DNA from: Bacteroidetes bacterium HGW-Bacteroidetes-21
GTDB taxonomy: Bacteria > Bacteroidota > Bacteroidia > Bacteroidales > GWA2-32-17
NCBI GenBank assembly: GCA_002840935.1
Contig: PHDH01000007.1
Location: 1 to 42,144, forward strand
Direction of reading: 5' to 3'
Length of the DNA stretch: 42,144 nucleotides
Numbering within the stretch: the stretch's first letter is position 1; each line of letters starts with the position of its first letter. The notes below the pieces were generated by a model, which saw nothing but the letters and a program-made list of their open reading frames with translations, did not search any database and was not told the origin of the DNA. A program made the translations under genes and the position numbers. Shown piece by piece: positions 30,327 to 38,233 of this stretch.

Positions 30327-30517
30327 GTATATAGCGGTATATTTTATGTGCTCTATAATAATTCAAATGTAAAAAAAGTTACTCAAAAAACACAAGAAAG
30401 GACAATGAATTTAATGTCATTTTGTATGTGTTTCACCATATGCCATTATTAGAAAATTTGTAGCATTGGCCCGTTACATATGAAACGTGAGCGAATGAGT
30501 GGGGAATCGTTATAGTA
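30327..30517 (-). repeat. Cassette element A: promoter-bearing intergenic repeat
   Basis: Bases 30327-30412 align nearly throughout with 31926-32012, and 30452-30475 align with 32059-32081, giving a colinear diverged repeat of about 150 bases. On the minus strand it contains TACATTTG (30364-30371) with a TTG 21 bases upstream (30393-30395), a good promoter for the 90-residue gene. The far end has a CGTT/AACG hairpin around 30472-30487, then GAGCGAATGAGTGGGG, and stops just before the stop codon of the next gene. Confidence 0.65.
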
Positions 30518-30859: not shown

Positions 30860-31855
30860 TTAGGTTTTATTACTTGCTTTTATTAATTTTAACTCATTAA
30901 TTTTTTTCGAAATATCCTCCATCCTCTTTTGTTTTTCTTGCATCCGAAGATCTGTTTTTTCAGATGGTGAGTGAACTTCATTTAGATAATCAAATAGTTT
31001 TTTGAATCCATTATTGGGTTCAGAATATTGAATAACTGCAATTGCTTGTGGACTATATTGTTTTGCAATTACAGAAAGAACAAAACCTATGTCTTTATTA
31101 AAGGATTTCAATTTTTCATTCAAAAAATCCTTACCTCTAGAATTAATAAACTTTGAGAATTTGGAAAGATTAAAGTATTCTAAGTCAGTTCCAATATTCC
31201 CATTTAGTATAATACAATCTTCTTTTGTTCCAACGTCTTCGATATTTGAAGCTTTTTTAATTTCTTCCATTGTCACATTTTCATTTAGGCGATAAAGGTT
31301 GGCTGTGGTAACTATGATTGGAACATTGTAGAAAATAACTTCAGAGGTGGCTAGTAACTCATCTATTTGGTGTTCCATCGCACTAACAATTTTTTCAGCC
31401 ATTGCATAGCTTAATTGGCTAATTGTTTGTGTTATGGTTTTGGGATTTTGTCCCCCAGAAGTAATTTCAATTCCTTTCCCACACAATGCTCCCAGAGGTT
31501 CATAATCGAGGGGAAGAAACTTCTTTTCCTTAGTGAAGTGATCAATTGGATTTAGAAAAGCGTATGATTCAATCTCATTAATGCCACCATAGTTTTCGGG
31601 GATGAATATCCAGTTTGTGGATGGGTCTCTATACTTACATTCGATCATTAGGTCAAAAAAATCACCACCCTTAATATATGAGGCATCAATATCATAGGAG
31701 AATTCATTGATTACCTCATTTTCATCTTCTCTTAAATACGTATATTCATAATTCCCAACGCATCCATTCTCACTGAGCAATTGCATTACTTCATATTCAA
31801 GTGGAATACTTGATTTAAGTAAAAAGTCTTTCCATTTACTATATTCTTTTTTCAT
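30860..31855 (-). CDS. PD-(D/E)XK nuclease-like protein
   Basis: This 331-residue cytoplasmic protein has a restriction-endonuclease-like core near its N-terminus: an early glutamate helix (PLEYEVMQLL), then D57 in SYDIDASYI and the E-x-K pair E72/K74 in FFDLMIECKYRD, the metal-binding set of the PD-(D/E)XK superfamily. The remainder (about 90-290) is alpha/beta with IVTTANLYRL, and the last 35 residues form a charged coiled-coil-like helix. No methylase or specificity subunit adjoins it, so it is not a classical restriction system. It may be a stand-alone defence nuclease or act with the small protein 45 bases downstream. Element B upstream supplies a TACATTTG promoter box. Confidence 0.75.
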   Translation of the reverse strand: MKKEYSKWKDFLLKSSIPLEYEVMQLLSENGCVGNYEYTYLREDENEVINEFSYDIDASYIKGGDFFDLMIECKYRDPSTNWIFIPENYGGINEIESYAFLNPIDHFTKEKKFLPLDYEPLGALCGKGIEITSGGQNPKTITQTISQLSYAMAEKIVSAMEHQIDELLATSEVIFYNVPIIVTTANLYRLNENVTMEEIKKASNIEDVGTKEDCIILNGNIGTDLEYFNLSKFSKFINSRGKDFLNEKLKSFNKDIGFVLSVIAKQYSPQAIAVIQYSEPNNGFKKLFDYLNEVHSPSEKTDLRMQEKQKRMEDISKKINELKLIKASNKT

Positions 31856-31925: not shown

Positions 31926-32100
31926 GTATTTAGCTGTACATTTTATCTGTTCTATCATTTAATCAAATGTAAAATAATTTAATCAAATATTAAAAGAAAG
32001 AACAAGGAATTTTCTTGCATAAAGCCAGGAAGAGTATATTTAGCTAGGTGCCCTAATCGAAAATTGTAGCAATGACCGGTTTTGACAGCTCGCTGAGTAG
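31926..32100 (-). repeat. Cassette element B: second promoter-bearing intergenic repeat
   Basis: This is the diverged partner of element A (31926-32012 with 30327-30412; 32059-32081 with 30452-30475). The minus-strand TACATTTG box at 31964-31971 is exactly conserved, 109 bases before the nuclease gene start, although no TTG lies at the standard distance. Around 32069-32136, CAATGACCGG.. faces ..CCAGTCAGCATTG as a long imperfect inverted repeat. Confidence 0.65.
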
Positions 32101-32150: not shown

Positions 32151-32768
32151 CTATATGTTATTAAAGACAATAGGGATTAATTTTTGAAATTCCTTTAATA
32201 GTGGTTTTGCAATTTCTCTCATTTGTGGGTGGGCGGCCTCACTAGTCCGAAGTTTAAAAAAGTGTTTCCATTCTCTCAAGTTCATCGTAACTACAATTTC
32301 TGTTTTTAAAGAATTTGGCAAAACACTCCTAGCTTCTTGAGGACTAGCTCCAAGTGAAATCAACTTGTTATAAGCAATTTCAGACTGAATCAAAGATTCT
32401 TTCCAAATGATAAACTTCTCATCATCCTCATTCCAAAAACAAGGTTTAATAACAGTCAGTTCACTTCCATATTTGCCTTTAGAATAATTACAATATCTTG
32501 TAGATTCTTGAGTATAACTTGCAAGCCTATGCCTAACAATTTCATGCGAAATCCCTCTATCACAAACTATTCGCACAGTTATACTTTGATGTTCAATTAC
32601 TGAAAAATGACCTCTTTCATTAATCATTGACACAAATTCCTCTGCTGAATCATGAGTTATTTGGTTTTCGCTCTTATAGGCGGTTCGACCAGCCTTTTCA
32701 ATCTGTTTAAGAATTAAGTCAGAGTCAATTTTTGACTCTATAGTAAAGTAGGGTTCAATTATTTTCAT
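32151..32768 (-). CDS. thyX: Flavin-dependent thymidylate synthase ThyX
   Basis: The 205-residue protein carries the ThyX signature RHR-x7-S (R79, H80, R81 to S89, within RHRLASYTQESTRY), the upstream SVIEHQSITVRI strand, and a C-terminal MNLREWKHFFKLRTSEAAHPQMREI segment that contributes dUMP-binding residues. ThyX methylates dUMP to dTMP using methylene-tetrahydrofolate with FAD and NADPH. Its ATG overlaps the stop of the metallophosphoesterase-PRTase gene as ATGA, so it is the last gene of the four-gene operon. ThyX in an AT-rich accessory island, coupled to PRTase-like genes, is unusual and suggests a part in that system rather than only housekeeping dTMP supply. Confidence 0.95.
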   Translation of the reverse strand: MKIIEPYFTIESKIDSDLILKQIEKAGRTAYKSENQITHDSAEEFVSMINERGHFSVIEHQSITVRIVCDRGISHEIVRHRLASYTQESTRYCNYSKGKYGSELTVIKPCFWNEDDEKFIIWKESLIQSEIAYNKLISLGASPQEARSVLPNSLKTEIVVTMNLREWKHFFKLRTSEAAHPQMREIAKPLLKEFQKLIPIVFNNI

Positions 32769-34501
32769 TTCTCATCTGTTGAAAAAAGTGGATAAAATAA
32801 GTCCAAACTATGTTTTATTATTGTACAATTCTCAATATTGTCATTATGCTGGCAAAGATTAATCTTTATTTTATTGCATATGCTATGATGGGTAACATTA
32901 TTGTAACTTGAAAATATTTCAGATTCATTTTCGCCTCCACAATAAAAAAGAGAGAATACAAATATATTCTTATTATTAAACATTTCTTTTTTTATTGTAT
33001 CTTTAAGTGAATCTGCCTTAAATAGAAGGTCTTTAATAAGTACAATATTCTTATATTTTCCTTCTTTGATTGTATGTTCGAAATTTGAAAAATCATTATC
33101 TTTTAGATAATCAGGAATAAAACTATAATCACACTCTGGGAAGAGAATTGACAATCTTGCTCCTAAAACATTACCTTCAATTCCTATTCCAATAATTAAG
33201 TCTGGCTTTATATCTATAAAGACTTGAAGAAATTTTAAATAAAATAAATGACTTATTAAATTAATTGATTCCTTATTTGAAATTAAATAATTTATATCTA
33301 TAATACCATGGCTTCTAAAACTCTTTGACCAATGGAAATGGCCCGTTTTGAAAAGTTTGTTTTCTTGAATCAATCTCATTAGCATATCTACATATTCTTC
33401 ATACTGATTGTTTTCTAGTTTACTAATACTTTCCGGTATTAAATCTTTATAATTTTCATTGTTAGATAAAGTTGTGAAATCATTTTTATCTTGGTTTAAG
33501 ACTAAGTCATTTAACACTTCATCGCTGTGTTTTATACAAAGAGTTACTTCATCTAATTCTTCCGAACTGTTATGATGCAGCCAATATGGGTTTTTTGAAT
33601 CAGGTTCTTCATATTCGTAAAACAATACTTTATACTTATGCTTTTGATTTTCTATTGAATGTATAATATTAAACGCATTTTTGATGCTTTTCCCAATTTT
33701 ACAAAAACTACTAACTGAAACATAATATTTATTTCCAGCGGTTTTAATTTCTCCTTTACTTCTAGAACTATGGATATGACCACAAAATGTTGTTGGAAAA
33801 TTACTATTGAGAATAAGAGAAACATCTTCCCAATTCTTAACATTAGCAGACTCATTTTTAAAGTCTTCTGGATTGTGATGCATTACCAGCAATTTGTCAT
33901 AATCATTAAATTTAATATTTGAAAATATGTCCTTAATTTTATTCTCAAGTGATTTAGTTTCAATAAAACCGATATGATCTTTTTTTTGAAAACTCTCTTT
34001 AAAACATGAGTTTATCCCTAGTATTATTAATTTATCTTCATCATCTATAATTGTATCAACTATTGCACTATCGCAAATGAAGTCTTTTTTTGTTTCAAAA
34101 AAATCATGATAAAATTTCTTAAATGATTGAAATTTAATATCATGGTAAAGATATGCTTCTTTTCTATTCGCTTCTGGCATACCATCAAGAGTTTTGCGTA
34201 GTGCACTCCATGTTATATCATGATTACCTGGACATATGAGAATATTTTCTTTCTTAATATTGAATTTTTGTTTTAATTCATTAAGAAAAATCAATACCTC
34301 ATTATACTCTCTCTCTTCCCCTTCATTTGCTATATCTCCAGAAATCAATATGTATTTTAATTTTAGAGAGTTTTTACTCAATCCATTTTCTAACCCCGAA
34401 ATAAAGCGCAACTTATAAGAATCATCATATTTTGAATTTCCTTTTAATTCATAATTTGCTACAAAATGCAAATCTGAAATATGTAAAATGGCATTCTTCA
34501 T
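32765..34501 (-). CDS. Metallophosphoesterase fused to an orotate-PRTase-like domain
   Basis: The 578-residue protein has two parts. Residues 1-300 are a calcineurin-like phosphoesterase with all metal motifs: D10-x-H12 (SDLHF), G55-D56, GNH94-D95, H208/H209 and GH242-x-H244. After an acidic linker, residues about 385-525 resemble orotate phosphoribosyltransferase: TGHFHWSKSFRSHG recalls the OPRTase GHF..L.SG..S segment, PDLIIGIGIEGNVLGARLS recalls the nucleotide-side loop, and NIVLIKDLLFKADSLK lies where the PRPP loop should be but lacks the acidic pair and TTGGS. The PRTase part may therefore bind but not turn over PRPP. It begins 2 bases after the stand-alone PRTase-like gene and overlaps thyX. 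No signal peptide is present. Confidence 0.85.
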   Translation of the reverse strand: MKNAILHISDLHFVANYELKGNSKYDDSYKLRFISGLENGLSKNSLKLKYILISGDIANEGEEREYNEVLIFLNELKQKFNIKKENILICPGNHDITWSALRKTLDGMPEANRKEAYLYHDIKFQSFKKFYHDFFETKKDFICDSAIVDTIIDDEDKLIILGINSCFKESFQKKDHIGFIETKSLENKIKDIFSNIKFNDYDKLLVMHHNPEDFKNESANVKNWEDVSLILNSNFPTTFCGHIHSSRSKGEIKTAGNKYYVSVSSFCKIGKSIKNAFNIIHSIENQKHKYKVLFYEYEEPDSKNPYWLHHNSSEELDEVTLCIKHSDEVLNDLVLNQDKNDFTTLSNNENYKDLIPESISKLENNQYEEYVDMLMRLIQENKLFKTGHFHWSKSFRSHGIIDINYLISNKESINLISHLFYLKFLQVFIDIKPDLIIGIGIEGNVLGARLSILFPECDYSFIPDYLKDNDFSNFEHTIKEGKYKNIVLIKDLLFKADSLKDTIKKEMFNNKNIFVFSLFYCGGENESEIFSSYNNVTHHSICNKIKINLCQHNDNIENCTIIKHSLDLFYPLFSTDEK

Positions 34502-34503
34502 AG

Positions 34504-35559
34504 CTATTTAAATTCAGTTTCGATTTTATATTTAATATCGCCGTTATTCTCTTTTGTTAACTTGAAAAGTGAACAGGTTTCGATTTCTTGCTTTCCTTTA
34601 ATCGCTTCAATTTTGACAATAGAAATATTCCCAATAACAATGGAATTCTCATATTGAATAAGACTTTTGGCAATTTCAATTTCAGTACCCATACATATTA
34701 CATCTGATACGATTAAGTAATTGTTTTGATTATCAAAATTGTTTCTTAAAATTGTTCTATATATTTTATTGATAGGCCCAATATGATCAATATAAGCCAT
34801 GTCAAGTAATGCTAATTTCGAAAGAATAGAAGCGATATAAGCCCCGTTTAAAGATTGAAAGAATAATAAAGTTTTTTTGATGTCTTTTCGATTATAATAT
34901 TCTTTAATAAGATTATCTGAAATAGCTTTTTTACAAAGGAGATATATCCCGAAATAAGTTAAATCCTTTTCTTCAATAAAACGCTTAATGTTTATATAGT
35001 TAGGCAAATATACATTACTAGAATTGCTAAATATTTTTTCATTAGGCTCAAGATATTTTTCTTTTAATCTTTTAATAAAGAGTCTTTGAAAAAGAGTCTT
35101 TATAAAAGAATCATATTCTTGAGTATCTATTTTACTGCATTTATAAAAGATATCAGTATAGGAATTCGTATCATGCTCCTTTATAAAAGCATTATTTTTT
35201 TGTTTGAATGACTTAAGTTTGAGATCTCCATATAACTTCTCGCTAACACGGATCAGAGATATGGAAATTTCTCTTTCAATTACTAAATTAAGGATTAAAT
35301 CAAATTCTGAACTTGCATTGCGAGATTCGTTAATTCTATAGAAATCAAACACAATATGTTTGTATGAAAATTCTTTTGTTTCAATAGCTTGTCTAACTCT
35401 TTCGATTGTATCAATTTTCAATTCAGTTGCAAAATAACCTAGACCAGAATCGCTGGAGATATTTGATTCATAATAATTAAAATTTTGAAAGACTTGTTCA
35501 CAATGAAGAGAAAAGTATATGGTTTCATTTTCTGAAATTGCTGAAAATAGATTTTTCAT
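34504..35559 (-). CDS. Phosphoribosyltransferase-like protein
   Basis: The 351-residue protein ends in a type I PRTase-like domain. LLFFQSLNGAYIASILSKLA (231-250) matches the pyrophosphate-side loop and helix, and YLIVSDVICMGTEIEIA (281-297) matches the PRPP-binding loop, with D286 retained but serine at the first acidic position (S285) and GTE closing the loop. The first 200 residues are mixed alpha/beta with no recognised motif. It could use PRPP on a base or nucleotide, or only sense PRPP. It starts 2 bases after the GHKL ATPase gene and is followed after 2 bases by the phosphoesterase-PRTase fusion, so it must be made in step with both. This family placement rests on motif reading only. 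Confidence 0.7.
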   Translation of the reverse strand: MKNLFSAISENETIYFSLHCEQVFQNFNYYESNISSDSGLGYFATELKIDTIERVRQAIETKEFSYKHIVFDFYRINESRNASSEFDLILNLVIEREISISLIRVSEKLYGDLKLKSFKQKNNAFIKEHDTNSYTDIFYKCSKIDTQEYDSFIKTLFQRLFIKRLKEKYLEPNEKIFSNSSNVYLPNYINIKRFIEEKDLTYFGIYLLCKKAISDNLIKEYYNRKDIKKTLLFFQSLNGAYIASILSKLALLDMAYIDHIGPINKIYRTILRNNFDNQNNYLIVSDVICMGTEIEIAKSLIQYENSIVIGNISIVKIEAIKGKQEIETCSLFKLTKENNGDIKYKIETEFK

Positions 35560-35561
35560 TA

Positions 35562-36707
35562 TTAAAAATTTAATTCGACTTCAATATGTACGCCTTGATA
35601 ATTGCTTTCATAAAATCTTACTGGAGAAATTAAATAATCACTTGTAAGATTATCAAGTAGACATTTTGCACATTTCATCGGTATTACATCACAACCGCTA
35701 CATCGATTTGAAGTAAATATAACTTGTACATTATCGTAATGTATTCTCATCTTACCACCTTTTTCTAGAATATGAACCAGTAATGTATATAGATTGTCTC
35801 TTTCTTTGCTTTTGGAATAATGTAGTGCGTCAAAAATTAATAAATAATTTTTTAATTTTTTTTTGTAATGGGATTTAAAATTTCGAGTAACAAAATTATC
35901 GAAGTTGGGTTTTTTTATAAATGACCCTTCGAAACCAATTCCTATATCAGAAATTGAAATTGTAGTTTTGTTATCCTTAGATTGTAGCATAGCTGAACAG
36001 GCTGAATAGCTATATAGCATAGAATTACATACTATTTCAGTAATAATTGATAAAATTGTATTAATGTTATTTTGAGAGCGTTCATATGCGTGTAACACAT
36101 TGTAAAAGTACTTTTCAATCTTTGGCTTTAGTTCATTAAATTTTTTTGTTCGAATTGTATCCAACTTCAGTTCGAGGTTTTCCGGTGTTAATGATTTGTC
36201 TAAGTAATTCTTGTAGTACTCATATGAACAATTTTCAAAAACATGAATCTTGTGATTTGGATTGTAATTAATTAGGTTATTCGAATTATTGTAAAAACCT
36301 AAATACCCTTTCTCAAAAGCAAAAATTTCTAGACCAACTCTTTTAACAATCTCAATTTTGATATTATTAACATTAAACTCTTCGCTAATAATTTTTGGTG
36401 CACCAACATTATTAAAAAACTGTGTATTATCTAAATATTTTGTGGCACTAGTATTTAAAATTTTCAAGGGTATTATTTTGCCATTATGAAAAGTCTTTAA
36501 AATCAAACCAAGAAATAACAAATTAGGTAAAACCAAAGGATCAAATTCGTCAACCTTTGTAAATGAAAATACTGGTGGAGTTGAATTCCCGTTTTCCATA
36601 TAAAATACTTTCAACTCCTCAAACAACTTTACATAGAACTTATAAGAGGAAATCTTACCAGAAAATTCTATTTCTTTAGATTCAAGATTATATTTAATAT
36701 TTTCCAT
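35562..36707 (-). CDS. GHKL-type ATPase with STAS-like N-terminus and Cys4 cluster
   Basis: In this 381-residue protein, residues about 1-110 resemble a STAS/anti-anti-sigma fold (FSFTKVDEFDPLVLPNLLFLGLILKT, then KIIPLKIL). Residues about 200-335 are a GHKL ATPase: N-box E224-x3-N228 (TEIVCNSMLYS), G1 box D254-x-G256-x-G258 (SISDIGIGF), and a G2-like stretch HYSKSKERDNLYTLL followed by GGKMRIHY. Four cysteines (C336, C339, C346, C349; C-x2-C-x6-C-x2-C) form a likely zinc knuckle between core strands. No kinase dimerisation domain or receiver is nearby, so it is not a standard sensor kinase. It is the first gene of the four-gene operon and may be its sensing or switching ATPase. Confidence 0.75.
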   Translation of the reverse strand: MENIKYNLESKEIEFSGKISSYKFYVKLFEELKVFYMENGNSTPPVFSFTKVDEFDPLVLPNLLFLGLILKTFHNGKIIPLKILNTSATKYLDNTQFFNNVGAPKIISEEFNVNNIKIEIVKRVGLEIFAFEKGYLGFYNNSNNLINYNPNHKIHVFENCSYEYYKNYLDKSLTPENLELKLDTIRTKKFNELKPKIEKYFYNVLHAYERSQNNINTILSIITEIVCNSMLYSYSACSAMLQSKDNKTTISISDIGIGFEGSFIKKPNFDNFVTRNFKSHYKKKLKNYLLIFDALHYSKSKERDNLYTLLVHILEKGGKMRIHYDNVQVIFTSNRCSGCDVIPMKCAKCLLDNLTSDYLISPVRFYESNYQGVHIEVELNF

Positions 36708-36861: not shown

Positions 36862-37377
36862 TTATTTCTTTGTTATTATCATGTAAAAATCAGTCAAATT
36901 CCGAATCGTTAATAGTAAAACATGTACTATCAAAAATACAATTAGTGAGAATCCAATATACTTAATTTCAATTCTCATTCTATAATTATCGGCAATCAAC
37001 GGATAAATAAGATTAACAATTATTAAAAAAATCTCAATTACAACAGAATAAGTAAAATTAATAAGTAATAATCGGAATAAAGACGCTTCCTGACTCCCAA
37101 TTTTCACTTTTGTTTTAATATTCTTAATCTCTTCAAGATTTCTACTATTCCCAGTTGTCAAAATTGTTATTATGGTAATAGAAAAACCAACTAAAACTCC
37201 AAGTAAAGTTAATGAGTTATTTCGAAAATTTGCACATGAGGAAACTACAGCTCCATTCTTTAATAAGCAATAGATTAGAACCCCAATAATTGCAGGAATA
37301 ATAAGCTCATAAATAAACAATCTTTTAGTTAATGTTTTAAAGTAGTCCGAAAGTAAAAGTAAAAATTCAAGGTACAT
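36862..37377 (-). CDS. Small multi-pass membrane protein
   Basis: The 171-residue product has about four membrane helices: LFIYELIIPAIIGVLIYCLL, LTLLGVLVGFSITIITILTT, a third around YSVVIEIFLIIVNLIYPLI and a last around GFSLIVFLIVHVLLLTI. A cytoplasmic charged loop (GNSRNLEEIKNIKTKVKIGSQEA) separates helices two and three. It starts one base from the stop of the 284-residue gene, so the two are co-transcribed. Small multi-helix membrane proteins are common membrane-damaging effectors in bacterial defence operons, which makes that a reasonable hypothesis, but no family signature is recognised. Confidence 0.75.
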   Translation of the reverse strand: MYLEFLLLLSDYFKTLTKRLFIYELIIPAIIGVLIYCLLKNGAVVSSCANFRNNSLTLLGVLVGFSITIITILTTGNSRNLEEIKNIKTKVKIGSQEASLFRLLLINFTYSVVIEIFLIIVNLIYPLIADNYRMRIEIKYIGFSLIVFLIVHVLLLTIRNLTDFYMIITKK

Positions 37378-37378
37378 A

Positions 37379-38233
37379 TCAATTAAAATTATGTAAAACA
37401 GTATCCATTTCGATTAACATTTCATTTGATAAGATTTCTCCAGTATCTTGATTATATTCAACCATAACATACTCTTGCCTCTCAATAAAATCAGTATTAA
37501 TTTTTACTTCGTTATTCTCTTGATTTCGTCCAATAATCCTTATTTTATGAATGGAATTTGTCCCACCATTTAACTTGGAATAAACATCACTTACAAAATC
37601 AATAATAGAATCACGAGTATTTGCCTTTACATTTATGGATATTTCATGTTGAACAGAATTTAAACGTTTTGAATAATTCAGGGAGTTACTCCCTAATAGT
37701 TGCTTATCTACAAATACATCAGCACAAACAACACGATTCAGATTTTGTATTTCCTCAAGAAAACTATCTTTTGCGATAATCTCATAACTAAATTTCAAAC
37801 GGGCATCTAAATCCAAAAGGGATAAAAAGTGATTAAAATATGATAAAAGTTGGTTTATATTTAATGCATCTTTACCCTTCTCTAATATTAAAATCAAATC
37901 TCCATCAATAGCCTTAGAAATTAAATGAGTTTTGTGTCTTTCACCTTCTAATAACTTTTTAGGATTTTCCCGTTCCGCAATAGTCTTACCATCTATCAAA
38001 GGAGGTCGAAAACTATGAGTTGCACTTTTAAAAACTAAATGACAACGAGAAGTAGAATCAAACTTTTTTACCTCATCAAGGAAACAGAATTTCTCACTAT
38101 TTATGTTCTCTTTCCTACCAACTTTTTCAATTATTATTAATGAATCAATAAGGTTACTAAATATATCAAAAACATTGAAGTCTGATAAATTTAAAGTCAA
38201 ATAATAAAATCCAATTTTTCTTTTCTTTTTCAT
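37379..38233 (-). CDS. Protein of unknown function, first gene of the membrane-protein pair
   Basis: The 284-residue cytoplasmic protein begins MKKKRKIGFYYLTLNLSDF. It has a central segment LLEGERHKTHLISKAIDGDLILILEKGKDALNI that suggests an alpha/beta fold, a helix around LLSYFNHFLSLLDL, and a beta-rich C-terminal third (IHKIRIIGRNQENNEV, EYVMVEYNQDTGEIL). I could not assign a family. A good promoter lies 45 bases upstream, and the multi-pass membrane protein is encoded one base downstream. The pair could be a sensor and membrane effector, or unrelated to the neighbouring four-gene operon, which has its own 154-base leader. Confidence 0.7.
   Translation of the reverse strand: MKKKRKIGFYYLTLNLSDFNVFDIFSNLIDSLIIIEKVGRKENINSEKFCFLDEVKKFDSTSRCHLVFKSATHSFRPPLIDGKTIAERENPKKLLEGERHKTHLISKAIDGDLILILEKGKDALNINQLLSYFNHFLSLLDLDARLKFSYEIIAKDSFLEEIQNLNRVVCADVFVDKQLLGSNSLNYSKRLNSVQHEISINVKANTRDSIIDFVSDVYSKLNGGTNSIHKIRIIGRNQENNEVKINTDFIERQEYVMVEYNQDTGEILSNEMLIEMDTVLHNFN

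Follow-up and report, generated by a model that had tools for sequence, protein, structure and literature searches.

The window analysed here, a stretch of 42,144 nucleotides from the genome of Bacteroidetes bacterium HGW-Bacteroidetes-21 (contig PHDH01000007.1), contains a minus-strand operon encoding a GHKL ATPase, a phosphoribosyltransferase (PRTase)-like protein, a calcineurin-like phosphoesterase fused to a second PRTase-like domain, and the thymidylate synthase ThyX. Comparison with other genomes showed that the first three genes occur as an ordered core on one strand in 29 loci, the window included, that the hydrolase of the third gene can be exchanged, and that the fourth gene varies. 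These sequence comparisons suggest, with a probability of roughly 0.6, that the operon belongs to a horizontally spread, effector-swapping, nucleotide-centred conflict system, which is probably directed against phages. Confidence in any single mechanistic step is much lower.

A three-gene core with an exchangeable hydrolase

An earlier note on this DNA, made from the sequence alone, had described a four-gene operon lying in an AT-rich island. Both features were found as described: all four open reading frames (ORFs) are intact (Table 1) and are separated by 2, 2 and −4 bases, the overlap of gene 3 and the ThyX gene being ATGA, and the GC content is 0.26–0.27 in genes 1–3 and 0.33 in the ThyX gene versus 0.42–0.44 in the flanking genes.

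The 28 further loci were collected in several searches. When 395 Bacteroidota genomes were queried with gene 2, two relatives, G308 and G016, proved informative, and each has genes 1–3 in this order. Among 84,980 species genomes, scanning recovered 24 loci, all in Bacteroidota, one of which was the G016 locus again. One more locus (L059, in genome G652) came to light when a profile was run against 393 genomes of the window's order. Two more loci, L082 and L232, are located on IMG/VR contigs. They surfaced only via ThyX, the first PRTase alignment having detected no relative in IMG/VR; therefore, they show that the linkage recurs and give no estimate of its frequency. The core is incomplete only at contig ends (L021, L022, L028) or by a broken or shortened frame (L011, L014). 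Its distribution is rare and patchy, with two carriers among the 393 genomes of the order and one among the five genomes of the family to which G652 belongs.

A calcineurin-like phosphoesterase serves as the hydrolase part in the 27 Bacteroidota loci, and an HD-CE domain takes its place in L082 and L232 (PF24391, 61.5 bits, E 1.3e-16, and 60.2 bits, E 3.3e-16, respectively; cut-off 27). The PRTase tail is kept in both HD-CE loci, and in L232 its PF00156 match is over the cut-off. This exchange with retention of the tail, which amounts to a natural domain experiment, was counted in favour of a conflict system.

As for the four families together, whose absence from other genomes would have refuted the earlier note, they were found outside the window in L059, L082 and L232, with HD-CE as the hydrolase in the last two; the other 25 loci hold the first three families. 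Since ThyX is absent from these 25 loci, it is an optional accessory and not a regular or core part of the system, and the four-gene unit of the earlier note gives way to a three-gene core. Among the 27 loci found by gene 2 alone, ThyX is present in two, including the window. L059, from a different family within the order, shares with the window all four genes, the 4-nucleotide overlap and the cysteine motif in gene 1; the identities of the core proteins are 43, 36 and 35%, and that of ThyX is 73%. In L082 and L232, the genes for the GHKL ATPase, the PRTase-like protein, the hydrolase-PRTase fusion and ThyX stand in tandem. The position of ThyX is thus kept with a core identity of 35–43% (L059) or lower and with two types of hydrolase, and this was also counted in favour of a conflict system.

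Domains of the core proteins and accessory enzymes

The window proteins gave no significant Pfam match for the GHKL and PRTase labels, and the families of their homologues support both. The HATPase_c profile matches 17 of the 24 homologues of gene 1 (E up to 0.1; best 6.2e-5), with no such match for the window protein itself. The N-box E224xxxN228 (TEIVCN) and the G1 box D254xGxG258 (SDIGIG) are present in the window; in L082, the glutamate of the N-box is replaced by asparagine. The CxxC...CxxC motif near the C-terminus (Cys4 motif, Table 1), a possible metal site, is common to the window and its closest relative L059 and is absent from the other aligned homologues. The best match of the N-terminal part in the PDB was a STAS domain, with low significance (E 1.6), and weak STAS profile matches (E about 0.05) were noted in 2 of 25 members of gene 2. 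The N-terminal domains of genes 1 and 2 did not align with each other, and homology between them was not supported on comparison. Of the STAS-like/GHKL ATPase with a Cys4 cluster described earlier, the ATPase and the cysteines stand, and a STAS-like domain is no more than a suggestion for either gene 1 or gene 2.

The protein of gene 2 consists of an N-terminal alpha/beta domain and a C-terminal PRTase fold (approximately residues 170–351) resembling orotate phosphoribosyltransferase (OPRTase) and PurR. Its structure model is good (predicted local distance difference test, pLDDT, 79; predicted template modelling score 0.84), and Foldseek matches it best with PurR (6e-8), then with OPRTase (2e-7) and also with adenine phosphoribosyltransferase. 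The C-terminal PRTase part of gene 3 shows pyrE matches in 22 of 23 homologues (best 8e-9), in agreement with the Foldseek match to OPRTase. The two PRTase-like parts align weakly in a profile comparison (E 0.026). The earlier note had treated them as different proteins; both look OPRTase-like and related to each other.

The fold of both domains is that of OPRTase and PurR, whereas their phosphoribosyl pyrophosphate (PRPP) loops are altered. The first acidic residue is gone in all 17 copies of gene 2 compared, where the pair reads S, G, F or Y followed by D, and in nearly all copies of gene 3. The gene 3 loop is IKDLLFKADSL in the window and ITDVVNDGRTI in most homologues, so that its pair is K-D and T-D, respectively, with E-D only in L059. 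In other words, the fold of a catalytic type I PRTase such as OPRTase is present, and its two adjacent acidic residues are generally not. With loops altered in this way, sensing looks likelier than catalysis; both domains may sense rather than convert. OPRTases are dimers with shared active sites. By analogy, we infer that the PRTase-like domains of genes 2 and 3 may form a pair to which PRPP or a nucleotide binds without being turned over.

The fusion of a phosphoesterase with all metal motifs to a PRTase, which had been read from the window sequence, was borne out by the profile, motif, pyrE and Foldseek analyses. The Metallophos profile PF00149 matches with 51.1 bits (cut-off 21.5; 3e-13), and the motifs DxH, GD, GNHD, HH and GHxH are all present. 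The motifs differ by lineage: GNHD with GHxH occurs in two ThyX loci, GDHD with GNEH in 20 loci, and GNHD with GDxH in L006 and L031. The retention of the textbook motifs in the two ThyX-linked phosphoesterases may indicate that they perhaps act on a substrate different from that of the other lineages.

Phosphoesterase matches in G103 and G903 were rejected as family members, being devoid of the PRTase tail and part of other gene sets. Two further phosphoesterase sets were observed. In L060 (5015–8814), near a DNA methyltransferase, the gene of a phosphoesterase (491 amino acids (aa), DS9_1 E 5.8e-16) immediately precedes that of an HSP90-like ATPase (774 aa), which is a different phosphoesterase-GHKL pairing. 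In L061 (7817–11877), a phosphoesterase (DS9_1 E 1.6e-15) is followed by a Sll1717-family P-loop ATPase and by a 329-aa protein of no named family, and this set adjoins DNA methylase, ThyA and integrase genes.

The identification of the fourth gene as ThyX was sustained, since the window protein exceeds both curated cut-offs (TIGR02170, 138.9 bits versus 87.9; PF02511, Thy1, 170.2 bits versus 24.8, E 6e-50) and the RHRX7S signature is intact. Judging from its sequence, the operon ThyX belongs to the phage type. ThyX proteins 74–76% identical to it are encoded on IMG/VR contigs that lack the core, and no ThyX similar to that of the window was found in the other 59 genomes of the order that were tested. 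In the trees, a single origin of the four operon copies is neither demonstrated nor rejected (approximately unbiased (AU) test, p 0.35); for a common origin of the window and L059 copies, the AU p value was 0.83. ThyX is not the sole thymidylate synthase of the host, because ThyA is encoded elsewhere in G000 and G652, the two ThyX-locus genomes tested.

In four Flavobacterium loci (L009, L023, L025, L028), a gene for stand-alone PncC is located 4–37 bases 3' of the core, and each of the four genomes encodes a full-length CinA elsewhere. Given the separate ThyA (two of two genomes tested) or full-length CinA (four of four), the fourth gene represents an extra copy of an enzyme of nucleotide metabolism. 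Other genes of no assigned family lie on the same strand 2–10 bases downstream of the core in L018 (12908–13990) and L013 (12952–14430), and another such gene lies farther downstream in L006 (5678–6922). Further accessory genes are possible.

Table 1. Features of the operon in the window
Feature	Position	Strand	Basis
Gene 1, GHKL ATPase, 381 aa	36707-35562	minus	intact ORF
Cys4 motif CSGCDVIPMKCAKC, CxxC...CxxC, residues 336-349, near GHKL C-terminus	35661..35702	minus	sequence
Gene 2, PRTase-like protein, 351 aa	35559-34504	minus	intact ORF
Gene 3, calcineurin-like phosphoesterase fused to second OPRTase-like PRTase domain, 578 aa	34501-32765	minus	intact ORF
Calcineurin-like phosphoesterase part of gene 3, about residues 1-300	33602..34501	minus	PF00149, metal motifs
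OPRTase-like PRTase part of gene 3, about residues 375-578	32768..33379	minus	pyrE matches, Foldseek
Gene 4, accessory, ThyX of phage type, 205 aa	32768-32151	minus	intact ORF
ThyX signature RHRX7S (RHRLASYTQES), residues 79-89, intact	32502..32534	minus	translation

Possible function and relation to known systems

The closest validated relatives of the window phosphoesterase domain are those of the DefensePredictor anti-phage systems DS-9 (DS9_1, E 1.6e-30) and DS-8 (E 5.6e-15), both of which lose phage defence when the active site of the phosphoesterase is mutated (PMC13092281). The operon is a member of neither system. DS-9 pairs the phosphoesterase with a HAD phosphatase, whereas the window operon has no HAD gene and scores 106.5 bits versus an equivalog cut-off of 420; in DS-8 the phosphoesterase is fused to NACHT, whereas the C-terminus of gene 3 is PRTase-like and the score is 54.2 bits versus a cut-off of 790. 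A further difference is that the phosphoesterase gene of the window stands with those of a GHKL ATPase and another PRTase-like protein. Thymidylate synthase is listed among the newly validated defence domains (PMC13092281). According to a 2020 survey of conflict systems, the calcineurin superfamily is a common effector, and in one class the calcineurin-type phosphoesterase is the most frequent one; its text makes no mention of PRTase, GHKL or thymidylate synthase (eLife 52696). The operons studied here resemble conflict systems whose calcineurin, HD-CE and other nucleotide effectors are swappable in that they, too, exchange nucleotide-directed enzymes, and differ in that no MoxR, vWA or STAND module was seen.

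The similarities to other known proteins are more partial. The best Foldseek match of gene 3 is YydB of the Bacillus subtilis YydD-YydB pair (9a6c_B, E 3.5e-16), obtained with a weak model (pLDDT 68) and a root mean square deviation of 17. YydD, the structural partner of YydB, is an ABC-type ATPase, and no gene for such an ATPase is present in the window operon. A GHKL ATPase linked to possibly STAS-like domains recalls SpoIIAB/SpoIIAA, with a weak anti-sigma F match (0.053); however, the STAS assignment is weak, and neither a sigma factor nor a phosphatase partner is present here. In line with the earlier note, no system of this composition was found in the open-access papers searched; parts of it may nevertheless have been described elsewhere.

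The nucleotide-centred conflict role proposed in that note fits the effector swap, the phosphoesterase related to DS-8 and DS-9, and the accessory enzymes; as to the supposed alteration of a nucleotide or PRPP pool by the PRTase/phosphoesterase pair, the PRTase-like domains may be sensors. The constant order and strand of the core in 29 loci, its patchy spread and the defence- or mobility-like genes beside some loci, with PADLOC matches among the flanking proteins, also speak for a conflict system. In the mechanism that could be envisaged, the two PRTase-like domains would pair as OPRTases do and, by binding PRPP or a nucleotide, form the sensing element, and the GHKL ATPase would act as a switch, dependent on ATP, by which the complex is restrained or set free. 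A change of the nucleotide pool on infection would free the phosphohydrolase, which would destroy a nucleotide required by both phage and host. ThyX, by producing deoxythymidine monophosphate (dTMP), or PncC, by converting nicotinamide mononucleotide to nicotinate mononucleotide for NAD, would offset the damage; alternatively, either could be a version of the enzyme that is not hit by the phage or the effector. It is possible, and for now tentative, that the operon represents a new immune class with a paired non-catalytic OPRTase-like sensor, interchangeable phosphohydrolases and a phage-derived ThyX (or PncC) that restores the pool or resists the attack.

Several results weigh against a nucleotide-centred conflict system. 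ThyX occurs in only four of the 29 loci, and an account that needs dTMP cannot explain the whole family. HD and calcineurin-like folds are also found in nucleases, so the nucleotide substrate is inferred, and the structure model of gene 3 is weak overall, its parts matching metallophosphoesterases and OPRTase. Neither plasmids nor GenBank phages gave a match in tblastn searches for which the core proteins of L010, L082, L232 and the window were the queries. PADLOC named no neighbour in the window; its matches among flanking proteins of the loci are counts without a control set.

The operon could instead be a regulator of nucleotide or PRPP stress, combining a GHKL/STAS partner switch, PRTase-like sensing and pool trimming, with ThyX and PncC as ordinary metabolic partners. 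PurR, a PRPP/ppGpp (guanosine tetraphosphate)-sensing regulator, is indeed one of the proteins that gene 2 matches best in fold, the altered PRPP loops suit a sensor, and the accessory genes are metabolic. However, conflict systems typically show a patchy distribution, a GC content below that of the flanks, as in the window, an exchange of effectors such as that between phosphoesterase and HD-CE, and nearby recombinases and OLD-like or HNH genes, as at several loci (an integrase, an AAA_21 ATPase and an HNH gene in L005; an OLD-like nuclease and recombinases in L232), which makes the stress regulator rather unlikely. Synthesis of a modified or toxic pyrimidine nucleotide, in which the PRTases would add ribose phosphate, the hydrolase would trim and ThyX would methylate, seems improbable: the acidic pair is lost from both PRPP loops in most copies, which speaks against catalysis, and most loci have no ThyX, even if the direct 3' position of ThyX in four loci and its status as a second thymidylate synthase beside ThyA would suit such a pathway, or a ThyX serving as an insensitive spare by which the thymidylate supply of the host is protected.

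A similarly low probability is assigned to a phage-derived ThyX that hitchhikes at the locus and has no role in the system. The operon ThyX does group among phage ThyX, including those of the core-less contigs, and the tree lends no support to a single origin of the four copies, nor does it reject one. Nevertheless, the gene occupies one and the same place in all four loci, its 4-nucleotide overlap being identical in the window and L059, and was kept despite the divergence of the core and the change of the hydrolase; repeated capture of ThyX at one place suggests selection. Should the operon prove to be immune in function, the known systems would gain a compact family, of which 28 further loci are named, whose swappable nucleotide hydrolases are controlled by a GHKL ATPase together with two PRTase-like partners. 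Host immunity would also be connected with thymidylate synthesis of the phage type, and a direct route would open to asking how PRPP or nucleotide pools report infection to cells.

Genes adjoining the operons

Upstream of the window operon (36862–38233, minus strand), two genes 1 base apart encode a soluble protein of 284 aa and a membrane protein of 171 aa; they have no Pfam or PADLOC matches and are possibly a separate two-gene system. A look-alike pair lies upstream of the core in L150 (2970–3848 and 3872–4381), with no BLASTP support for kinship with the window pair. The upstream pair in L082 (about 290 aa and a 170-aa membrane protein) was rejected as a counterpart, again having no BLASTP support. 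The flanking gene chosen for an empty-site comparison belongs to a large multi-copy family, which made the comparison uninformative.

Downstream of the ThyX gene, in the same AT-rich stretch, a minus-strand gene (30860–31855) encodes a 331-aa protein that matches no family and contains a possible PD-(D/E)xK-like stretch, FDLMIECKYR. A 50-nucleotide direct repeat (82%) was detected at 30363–30412 and 31963–32012, that is, 3' of the ThyX gene and again 3' of a gene encoding 98 aa. No further copy was found in the window, L059, L150 or L232, and the repeats could be cassette borders or shared terminators.

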